Shown piece after piece: positions 23,631 through 26,808 of a stretch of 60,505 nucleotides of DNA. Source of the DNA: Myxococcales bacterium. Its GTDB lineage: Bacteria > Myxococcota_A > Polyangia > GCA-2747355. The notes beneath the pieces were generated by a model, which did not search any database, was not told where the DNA came from, and was given only the letters and a program-made list of their open reading frames with translations. The number at the start of each line of letters is the position of its first letter. The first letter of the stretch is position 1. Made by a program: the position numbers and the translations under genes. Where the stretch lies: assembly GCA_020431405.1 (NCBI GenBank), contig JAGQIK010000452.1, positions 1-60,505 of the forward strand, written 5' to 3'.

Positions 23631-23693
23631 ATAATTGTAGTGCGTCGAGATCACGAGTTGAACCGGGGCGAGGCTCGGTCTAGGGTCCGGCCT

Positions 23694-24920
23694 ATGGCCG
23701 ATATCCAGCCCTTCGCCGCCATCCGTCCCGCGCCGGCGCACGCTGCGGCGGTCAGCTCGCCGCCCTACGACGTGCTCGACCGCGACGAGGTTATCGCGCG
23801 CGTTGCCGCCAGCCCGGAGAGCTTCCTGCGCGTGATCCGACCCGACGCCGAGCTGCCCGACGGCACGCCGGCGAGCGATCCGCGCTTCACGCAGGTCGCG
23901 CGCGACAACCTCGCCGCCCTCGAGCGCGACGGCGCGATGCAGCGTGACGCCGCGCCGTGCTTCTATATCTACGAGCTGTCGCTCGGCGGTCACACGCAGG
24001 TCGGTGTCGTCGCCGGCGCGTCGTGCCGCGAGTACGACCAGGGGCTGATCAAGCGCCACGAGCACACGCGCGAAAAGGAGCTCGACGGGCGCACGCGCCA
24101 TATCGAAGGCGTCGGCGCGCAGACTGGCCCGGTGATGCTGACCTATCGCAAGCAGGCCGCCATCGACGCACTCGTTAACGAGCGGCGCGCGGCGGATCCC
24201 GTCTACGACTTCGTCGCCGACGACGCCGTGCGCCACCGGCTGTGGGTCGTCGGCGACGCCGAGGGCATCGCTGCGCTGCGCGAGCGCTTCGCACGCGACG
24301 TCAGCGCGCTCTACATCGCAGACGGCCACCACCGCAGCGCTGCCAGCCATGCCGTGTGGAAGCGTCACCAGCGCGAAGGCGAGACCACGCCCTACGATCA
24401 CTACCTCGTCGTGCTGATCCCCGACGACCAGGTGCAGATCCTCGCCTACAACCGGCTGGTCAACGACCTCGGCGACCTCGACGCCGACGCGCTGCTCGCC
24501 GCCGCCGGCGAGCGCGGCTTCGACGTGGTCGAGGCGAATCAGCCCCAGCCGGGCGCTCGCGGGCGCATCGGGATCTACTGCGGCGGCCGCTGGCGCCACC
24601 TCGTCGCGCGCGACGTGGATCCGTCCGACGACACGATCTTCGACGCGCAGCTGCTGCAGGAGCGGCTGCTCGCGCCGCTGCTCGGCATCGTCGACGTCAA
24701 GACCGACCCGCGCATCGATTTCATCGGCGGCATCCGCGGCGCTGCCGAGCTCGAGCGCCGCGCCGACGCGACCTCGGGCGTTGCCTTCTTCATGCACCCG
24801 GTCTCCGTCGCGCAGCTCATCGCCGTGTCCGACGACGGCGGCGTGCTGCCGCCCAAGTCGACATGGTTCGAGCCGAAGCTGCGCTCCGGCCTCTTCGTGC
24901 GTCCCCTCACGTCGCGATAG
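23694..24920 (+). CDS. DUF1015 family protein
   Basis: A 408-residue protein. MADIQPFAAIRPAPAHAAAV, SSPPYDVLDRDE and LIKRHEHTREKELDGRTRHI match the conserved blocks of DUF1015 (COG4198), as does ALYIADGHHRSAA. The function of the family is unknown. ATG 23694 is the first Met and starts the conserved block; the longer upstream frame is non-coding. It is divergent from the ThDP operon with 138 nt between starts and may share its regulation. Confidence 0.88.
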   Translation: MADIQPFAAIRPAPAHAAAVSSPPYDVLDRDEVIARVAASPESFLRVIRPDAELPDGTPASDPRFTQVARDNLAALERDGAMQRDAAPCFYIYELSLGGHTQVGVVAGASCREYDQGLIKRHEHTREKELDGRTRHIEGVGAQTGPVMLTYRKQAAIDALVNERRAADPVYDFVADDAVRHRLWVVGDAEGIAALRERFARDVSALYIADGHHRSAASHAVWKRHQREGETTPYDHYLVVLIPDDQVQILAYNRLVNDLGDLDADALLAAAGERGFDVVEANQPQPGARGRIGIYCGGRWRHLVARDVDPSDDTIFDAQLLQERLLAPLLGIVDVKTDPRIDFIGGIRGAAELERRADATSGVAFFMHPVSVAQLIAVSDDGGVLPPKSTWFEPKLRSGLFVRPLTSR

Positions 24921-25143
24921 AGCTGACCGACTCGCGCTGCCGCGGGGATCTCGCGCGCACGGCGCGACCACCTGCTGACCACTGCGCCTTCCAACTATCG
25001 GAGCGAACGGCGACGCCTTCTGCCAGGGGGCGAGCGTGCGCGCTCGCCGAAAAACGCAGTCATTTTCAGATCCCTACCGGGCGCAGTGCCTGGTTCGTGG
25101 CTTGCAACCCGTCCGGATACCAACCCGCGAAGGACCAGCCGCC

Positions 25144-26808
25144 ATGAGCACCACACTCAAGAGCCACTCGCTGAGAGCCCGAACCCGCGCTCTGCTGATC
25201 GCGATCCTGCTGGCCTTCGTCAGCTCGAGCGCGTTGGCCGCACCACGCGCGGTCAAAGGCGGTGGGCTGGATGCCAAGGCGAGGACCTTCGCGCGCCAGA
25301 TCAGCCGCGCGCTCAAGGCCCAGAAGTGGCGCGGCGTGAAGATCTACTACCACGCTGACCTCGACGGCGTGCTCACGGCCAAGGCCATGGAGCACTTCCT
25401 GCGCGGTCAGGGCGTCAAGAAGTTCGACTACGAGCACATCCAATACGGCAGCCGCGAGTACGCCATCTCCAAGCCCAAAGACGGCTACATGCCGGTGCTG
25501 GTGGACTTCGCCCACGGCAAGCCGTGGATGGCCGTACACACCGACCATCACTCGTCGCAGGTTGGCTTCAGCAAAAAGACCGCGCGCGCCTACGTCAAGT
25601 CGCCGAGCAATGGCAGCTTCATCGCGGCGCTCACCAAGGGCCTGCTCAACGAGCACGAGGTCTCGGTGTGCGACATGGTCGACGGCGCGCAGTACGCGCA
25701 GCGCGGCTACTGTGCCGCCGATACGCGCCAGACGCAGCTCAACCTCGCCGCCCACAAGGGTGATCGCAAGAAGACCGAGCACCTCGGCCACGTCGTCAAC
25801 TCCAAGCTGCTCGCGATGCGCAACAAGCGCGCGGGCAAAGGCGCGGCCAAGGGCAGCATGCTCAACGAAGTGCTCGCCTCGATGGAGAGCCCGTCGCTGT
25901 CGTCGCTCAACAAGGCCATCGACTCCGCCGTCGATCGCTACCGCGACAACTCGCGCTGGAGCGTTCGTACCCCGCAGGAGCTACACGAGTTCAAATCGAG
26001 CTACGTCGACGCGCTGCGCGCCAAGGTCGTGCCGGCCGGCGTAGAGCGCGTGGTGCAGCTGCGTACCGGCGAGTCGATGCTGCTCGGCAACGTTATCGTG
26101 CAGCACGGCGCGCCGATGCCGGCCGTCACGCTGGGCGGCTACAACCGCTACGCGCCGTTCGAGGTGCACCCCAAGGCGCAGTATCACTGCATCTCCTGGA
26201 ACGTCGGTCTCGTGCAGGTCTCGAAGAACCCGTTCCAGAAGGGGCACAACCCGTATGACCTGGGCAAGCTGATGCTCGGCCCCAGCGGCGTGATCGGAAA
26301 GTGGAAGAAAGAGCTGCGCAACGTCCGCATCACGCTGTCGCGCATGAAGGGCGTGGCCGAGGTCGAGGTCAGCGACGAGGCGCGCAAGGCGGCTAGGAAG
26401 GGCGGCAACAGCGAGCTCGCCGGCGCGGTCGGCTACACCTGGGAAGACTTCCGCTCGCTCTACAAGCAGGGCCAGGTGCGCGGCATCGACTTCAACGACA
26501 AGGCCAAGGTCGCTCGCATCGAGGCGATCATGAAGAAGCAGTTCAACCAGCTGACGCTGGGCGAGATGCGCGAGCTGGGACGCATCAGCGTGAGCGGCTG
26601 GGACGTCATCCATGCCAACTCGGGCGGCCACCGCGACATCACCAACATCTCTGGCCTCAACTTCCTGCCCAAGTCGTTCCGCGGCGGCTACACCGTCTTC
26701 ATGAAGGAAGTGCAGCAGGAAGCGGCGCGCGTGATGATGGACAAGAAGCTCGACAAGCCGACCCGCAGCCGCGCCAGCAACGAGACGACCCCGCCCTCCT
26801 CGAACTAG
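25144..26808 (+). CDS. Exported DHH-family phosphoesterase-like protein
   Basis: A 554-residue protein with a Sec signal peptide (RTRALLIAILLAFVSSSALA, cleavage near residue 33). The mature part has DHH-superfamily metal motifs: H70-A-D72-L-D74-G75 (compare the RecJ DxDGxxS motif), D121 in VDFAHG, the D134-H135-H136 triad in VHTDHHSSQV, and D177/D180. It also has a DHHA1-like GGH (494-496) in ANSGGHRDITN. Known DHH enzymes (RecJ, NrnA, GdpP) hydrolyse DNA, nano-RNA or cyclic dinucleotides in the cytoplasm or as membrane proteins; an exported one is unexpected. The lead is ATG 25144 with AAGGA upstream. Function is inferred from motifs only. The 223-nt region 24921-25143 before it shows nothing notable. 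Confidence 0.75.
   Translation: MSTTLKSHSLRARTRALLIAILLAFVSSSALAAPRAVKGGGLDAKARTFARQISRALKAQKWRGVKIYYHADLDGVLTAKAMEHFLRGQGVKKFDYEHIQYGSREYAISKPKDGYMPVLVDFAHGKPWMAVHTDHHSSQVGFSKKTARAYVKSPSNGSFIAALTKGLLNEHEVSVCDMVDGAQYAQRGYCAADTRQTQLNLAAHKGDRKKTEHLGHVVNSKLLAMRNKRAGKGAAKGSMLNEVLASMESPSLSSLNKAIDSAVDRYRDNSRWSVRTPQELHEFKSSYVDALRAKVVPAGVERVVQLRTGESMLLGNVIVQHGAPMPAVTLGGYNRYAPFEVHPKAQYHCISWNVGLVQVSKNPFQKGHNPYDLGKLMLGPSGVIGKWKKELRNVRITLSRMKGVAEVEVSDEARKAARKGGNSELAGAVGYTWEDFRSLYKQGQVRGIDFNDKAKVARIEAIMKKQFNQLTLGEMRELGRISVSGWDVIHANSGGHRDITNISGLNFLPKSFRGGYTVFMKEVQQEAARVMMDKKLDKPTRSRASNETTPPSSN

Follow-up and report, generated by a model that had tools for sequence, protein, structure and literature searches.

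To our knowledge, the DHH enzymes characterized so far are intracellular enzymes of repair, RNA turnover and second-messenger metabolism. A secreted soluble DHH enzyme, or one packaged in a virion, was not found described in searches of an open-access paper library. The window analysed here, a stretch of 60,505 nucleotides from a Myxococcales bacterium, encodes a DHH-family protein with a predicted signal peptide (25144-26808) that is neither NrnA, GdpP nor a canonical RecJ.

The nearest fold relatives of the window protein are RecJ, the archaeal RecJ proteins (GAN and RecJ2) and RecJ-Cdc45, which provide its best Foldseek matches (6lrd, 5f56, 5x4h and 7bhi) and have in common with it the DHH motifs and a second domain bearing GGH. 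The resemblance is in fold only: the window protein is matched by no RecJ model of Pfam or NCBIfam, has helical insertions of its own and is predicted to be exported. NrnA and DhhP (nanoRNase, pApA hydrolase) carry the same catalytic DHH and GGH motifs but are intracellular, match the fold more weakly (E 1e-3) and measure about 320 aa (8iu7), whereas the window protein has a signal peptide, a mature length of 522 aa and no NCBIfam match. This bears out the remark in the preliminary description that a length of 554 is unlike NrnA. The c-di-AMP phosphodiesterase GdpP (YybT) has a catalytic module of DHH-DHHA1 type like that of the window protein (5xsi, E 1e-4); unlike GdpP, the window protein lacks PAS and GGDEF, has no transmembrane region besides the signal and is predicted to lie on the opposite side of the membrane.

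Likeness of other kinds is found in three further sets of proteins. CdnP, SntA and EecP are extracellular cyclic-dinucleotide phosphodiesterases, exported as is predicted for the window protein, but they are built on metallophosphoesterase-nucleotidase domains instead of DHH (PMC13229355). Two BFVD proteins, A0A6J5L671 and A0A8D9FS97, have the same architecture as the window protein (TM 0.70-0.71, E about 1e-30, 27-28% identity) but are phage-encoded and uncharacterized. The internal head proteins of T4 (IPI-III and Alt) resemble the phage members of the DHH family in a short leader that ends in [ILV]-x-E (motif from PMC9026906); the proteins themselves are unrelated, packaging of the DHH proteins is our inference, and the bacterial member has no such leader. 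Taking these comparisons with the results below, we give a probability of about 0.55 to the reading that the window protein is a phage-derived, Sec-exported phosphodiesterase of DHH-DHHA1 type, which is packaged in virions in the phages, has a Sec signal in place of the phage leader, and would cut extracytoplasmic nucleic acid.

Start site and signal peptide

The open reading frame, its length and the positions of its motifs are as given in the preliminary description (Table 1). Translation probably begins at the ATG at 25144, since codon-position composition places the beginning of coding there: the signal codons have a GC3 of 0.88 and the core one of 0.93, compared with 0.58 for the 36-codon extension upstream. 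The alternative GTG start at 25036 (590 aa) was rejected on this low value. The next candidates downstream, a TTG at codon 31 and a GTG at codon 65, have no evident ribosome-binding site, and a start at codon 65 would delete a helix conserved in the family, which makes a cytoplasmic start downstream unlikely.

The predicted signal peptide, MSTTLKSHSLRARTRALLIAILLAFVSSSALA^AP with the cut expected after ALA-32, has a positive n-region, a hydrophobic stretch and an AXA site; sequence, model and hydrophobicity revealed neither a lipobox nor a further transmembrane segment. Its hydrophobic peak reaches 2.44 over 14 residues, compared with about 1.7-2.8 in the other signal-bearing proteins of the window, and the peak never exceeds 1.64 in the phage and CPR members of the family. 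The second bacterial homologue, G003, which comes from the same order and is 40% identical, carries a signal peptide built in the same way but from different residues. Matches of NCBIfam toxin B subunit models covered residues 15-40 only, within the signal peptide, at less than one tenth of the cut-off score, and were set aside as chance.

The protein might nevertheless not be freely exported, if its N-terminal helix were an uncleaved anchor or if translation began further downstream, and the enzyme would then be cytoplasmic or held at the membrane. We regard this as very unlikely in view of the ALA^AP site, the GC3 and ribosome-binding site at the ATG, a hydrophobic peak like that of the other exported proteins in the window, and the signal of the same anatomy in the 40%-identity homologue; moreover, an anchor with its N-terminus inside would still place the domain outside. 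The Sec signal that the preliminary description had called convincing therefore stands on sequence, hydrophobic peak, cleavage site, GC3 and ribosome-binding site, and the start, which might have lain downstream of the signal, lies upstream of it.

Table 1 Features of the exported DHH-family gene and its surroundings, in window coordinates.
Feature	Position	Strand	Basis or remark
DHH-family protein, exported (predicted)	25144..26808	+	554 aa, stop included in coordinates
Upstream in-frame extension from GTG, probably untranslated	25036..25143	+	GC3 0.58, below its own GC1 of 0.72
AAGGA, likely ribosome-binding site	25127..25131	+	sequence; just 5' of ATG
Sec signal peptide, residues 1-32, predicted cleavage ALA^AP	25144..25239	+	sequence, hydrophobicity, GC3
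DHH motif I, HADLDG, residues 70-75	25351..25368	+	H70, D72, D74, G75 invariant
DHH motif II, VDFAHG, residues 120-125	25501..25518	+	D121 and F122 invariant
DHH motif III, residues 134-136	25543..25551	+	invariant
DHH motif IV, D180	25681..25683	+	invariant
Helical insertion, about residues 191-305, between DHH and DHHA1-like parts	25714..26058	+	AF2 model
R335-Y336, family-specific invariant residues, DHHA1-like part	26146..26151	+	44-sequence comparison
Second helical insertion, about residues 373-480, before GGH	26260..26583	+	AF2 model
DHHA1-type GGH, residues 494-496	26623..26631	+	invariant

Fold and conserved residues

The AlphaFold (AF2) model of the protein (pLDDT 84, pTM 0.83) shows a DHH domain, a helical insertion and a DHHA1-like domain into which a second helical insertion is set before the GGH. 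Foldseek matches in the PDB at E<1e-3 were headed by RecJ (4e-6), followed by archaeal RecJ and then by RecJ-Cdc45, GdpP and others of the superfamily, with a few labelled merely 'DNA replication protein' or 'uncharacterized'. Compared over the whole chain with known DHH structures, the model has low TM-scores (0.2-0.4), which its large insertions would lead one to expect, but which make the assignment to a subfamily less firm. The modelled fold is that of the DHH superfamily (RecJ, archaeal RecJ/Cdc45, GdpP), so the absence of a DHH fold, which would have spoken against the earlier assignment, was not what AlphaFold and Foldseek returned.

The DHH core (HADLDG, VDFAHG, DHH) and the DHHA1-like GGH named in the preliminary description were located at the positions given in Table 1, and both the metal ligands and the GGH proved invariant in 44 sequences. 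In total 22 columns are invariant in this comparison, among them every metal ligand (H70, D72, D74, D121, D134-H-H and D180), and the DHH motifs are therefore not a product of chance. N362-P363 is a further invariant pair specific to the family. An exported soluble DHH phosphoesterase, as first proposed, is thus supported by the predicted signal peptide, the modelled DHH fold and the lack of a lipobox or further transmembrane segment, and the model adds two helical insertions.

Sequence models recognize the family unevenly. The window protein has no recognized match to PF01368 or other Pfam models, nor to NCBIfam, and a PF09124 match (E 0.14) was dismissed as chance. PF01368 is matched by 37 of the 44 homologues at E<=0.01, and P0005, a remote member from the 735-kb phage, passes its cut-off (29.2 vs 28.1 bits). 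The DHHA1 domain model PF02272 matches a single family sequence (1/44), though the GGH is invariant. Searches of PDB sequences gave nothing relevant, and no solved relative was found by sequence. The homologue at L003:5956-7944 (LR745206) carries a winged-helix-like insert between the DHH and DHHA1-like parts (PF14947, E 3e-5, just under the cut-off).

Distribution of the family

The DHH subfamily is mostly viral and is carried mainly by T4-like and huge phages. With the single sequence as query, the scan of viral sequences was empty and the only matches outside cells were three huge phages of 634-735 kb; a 4-row alignment found at least 85 IMG/VR loci. Within the host's class, the source genome and G003 alone encode the family out of 318 genomes, and a match in G254 (E 1e-3, 68 residues) was too weak and short to count. 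No match was found in the plasmids searched. The GTDB contig set, scanned with two peptide patterns only, added three loci. One of them, L006 (CASEYV010000001.1, labelled uncultured bacterium), was rejected as a third bacterial case because gp23 and an S77 prohead protease lie on the same contig, which marks it as a phage contig binned with a genome; the other two (L007 and L008, from Falkowbacteria) encode remote DHH proteins of ordinary length, about 325 aa.

The viral records examined, 15 in number and some of them fragments, are of T4 type: gp23 was above the cut-off in 10, and the S77 protease was likewise matched at E<=1e-3 in 10, with 4 above the cut-off. In the weaker protease cases, the match sits a few kilobases from the gp23 gene.

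Synteny is conserved in the huge-phage clade, where a conserved gene of about 465 aa stands a short way upstream of the DHH gene, often separated from it by one small gene (L003:4074-5498, L004:4026-5465, L058:4147-5541, L080:4412-5785, L088:4063-5457). The product of this gene begins M(R/K)KYS(D/E)KF and has a GFEFEFY motif.

Leaders of the phage proteins

In T4, capsid targeting propeptides of 10-19 residues direct internal proteins to the head, and gp21 cleaves after L/I-x-E (PMC9026906). When the phage representatives with a defined Met start were examined, with V allowed at the first place of the motif, all 27 had an [ILV]xE[SGTEA] site ahead of the first helix, which is conserved; in similar N-terminal windows, such a site occurs in about 12-23% of the remaining ORFs of those contigs. 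The leaders vary in length and sequence and the site is retained. Sites of this kind are also present in the capsid proteins of these phages (LNE-GG, INE-NA and INE-AT) and in the protease, there close to its start. Neither bacterial copy has an [ILV]xE before the DHH core; a signal peptide stands in its place, and no phage copy of the family has a signal peptide.

Leaders resembling that of the DHH protein also occur on unrelated neighbour genes, with 11 comparisons at p<=0.01 across 15 contigs, in some contigs only. Genes bearing T4-like leaders come after the DHH gene in the phage clade closest to the bacterial pair (L014, L017 and L013). Runs of neighbouring phage genes, each with a short N-terminal leader of a similar kind that ends in [LIV]xE, lie at L018:8211-13290, L082:8076-11020 and L014:2336-4021, with MKDLIRHILKEE, MKIIISEAQYKQLTEE and MKFFEKIMIDEYNEWLNEA as examples. 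Judged by their leaders, these runs suggest a large cargo of internal head proteins.

From these sequence features, the phage DHH enzyme is probably head cargo, delivered with the genome. The leaders might instead have no part in packaging, the [ILV]xE being simply a piece of a conserved N-terminus and the enzyme an intracellular nuclease during infection. The variable kind of the leaders and the restriction of significant neighbour likeness to some contigs agree with this alternative, and the motif could persist by common descent, all phage members deriving from one ancestor. We nevertheless think it unlikely, if the most serious of the alternatives raised here, given that the site is kept in 27/27 while leader length and sequence vary and that gp23, S77-protease matches and capsid proteins bearing sites of this kind occur in those phages too.

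Origin of the bacterial gene

In the tree, the window protein and G003 are sisters (100/100), and the pair groups with six T4-like phage sequences (99/99). An AU test did not reject a tree in which all phage sequences are monophyletic (p=0.08), so transfer from phage to bacterium falls short of proof, and we dropped it as an established fact. Acquisition of the gene by the bacterial lineage from a T4-like phage is most likely, mainly on the distribution of the family. The reverse history, in which an originally bacterial gene passed to phages and was lost nearly everywhere in the bacterial lineage, would accommodate both the AU result and the wide divergence of the bacterial pair (40% identity), yet it appears improbable, with 2/318 genomes of the class set against at least 85 diverse viral loci and the bacterial pair placed with one phage clade at 99/99.

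Both bacterial copies lie among ordinary, cellular-looking genes, with no recognizable prophage, phage remnant, operon or functional link. A DUF1015 gene (PF06245, E 8e-86) lies on the same strand at 23643-24920, 223 bases before the DHH start, with no evident operon.

Function

The mature window protein is strongly basic (pI 9.9, net charge +32), and phage members of the near clade carry +16 to +25; a polyanion substrate fits this charge. Together with the intact metal site, the GGH-bearing second domain and the RecJ-like fold, the charge favours phosphodiester hydrolysis of single-stranded nucleic acid or oligonucleotides.

A signalling nucleotide (a cyclic di- or oligonucleotide, or pApA) could take the place of nucleic acid as the substrate, in which case the injected phage enzyme would erase a defence signal and the exported bacterial copy would remove cyclic nucleotides from outside the cell. 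In favour of this, Foldseek places GdpP and NrnA among the fold relatives, a role against cyclic-nucleotide defence has been proposed for the DHH phosphodiesterases of some jumbo phages (PMC7824862), and there are exported phosphodiesterases of another fold that act on cyclic dinucleotides (PMC13229355). In Foldseek, however, GdpP and NrnA come below RecJ and archaeal RecJ, a protein so basic rather suggests a polymer, and such cyclic nucleotides act inside cells, which leaves the exported copy without an obvious target. On balance we consider a signalling nucleotide a rather unlikely substrate.

According to the reading we prefer, a capsid-targeting-like leader that includes a prohead-protease site would bring the phage form into the head, from which it would enter the host along with the genome. 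The bacterial lineage would have taken the gene from a T4-like phage, its packaging leader being swapped for a signal peptide. The bacterial product would then pass through Sec and act in the periplasm or beyond as a Mn/Mg-dependent phosphodiesterase of DHH-DHHA1 type, cleaving single-stranded nucleic acid or short oligonucleotides at their phosphodiester bonds, with extracytoplasmic nucleic acid as its target in the bacterium. There it could serve to scavenge nucleic acid; once injected by a phage, the enzyme could attack the nucleic acid of the host or the cyclic-nucleotide signals of its defence.

The relatives raise the interest of the locus: they make up an uncharacterized and mostly viral DHH subfamily whose members bear what seem to be interchangeable delivery tags. 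We put forward tentatively, at somewhat less than even odds, that this is a subfamily of delivered enzymes, packed in the heads of T4-like and huge phages and injected, one of which a bacterium captured, exchanging its leader for a Sec signal. If so, these would be the first DHH nucleases or phosphodiesterases described as virion-packaged, and the first described as exported and soluble. This would give phages a further means of bringing in a nuclease or phosphodiesterase just as infection begins, and would be a case in which a cell put an enzyme from phage cargo to new use by a change of delivery tag.
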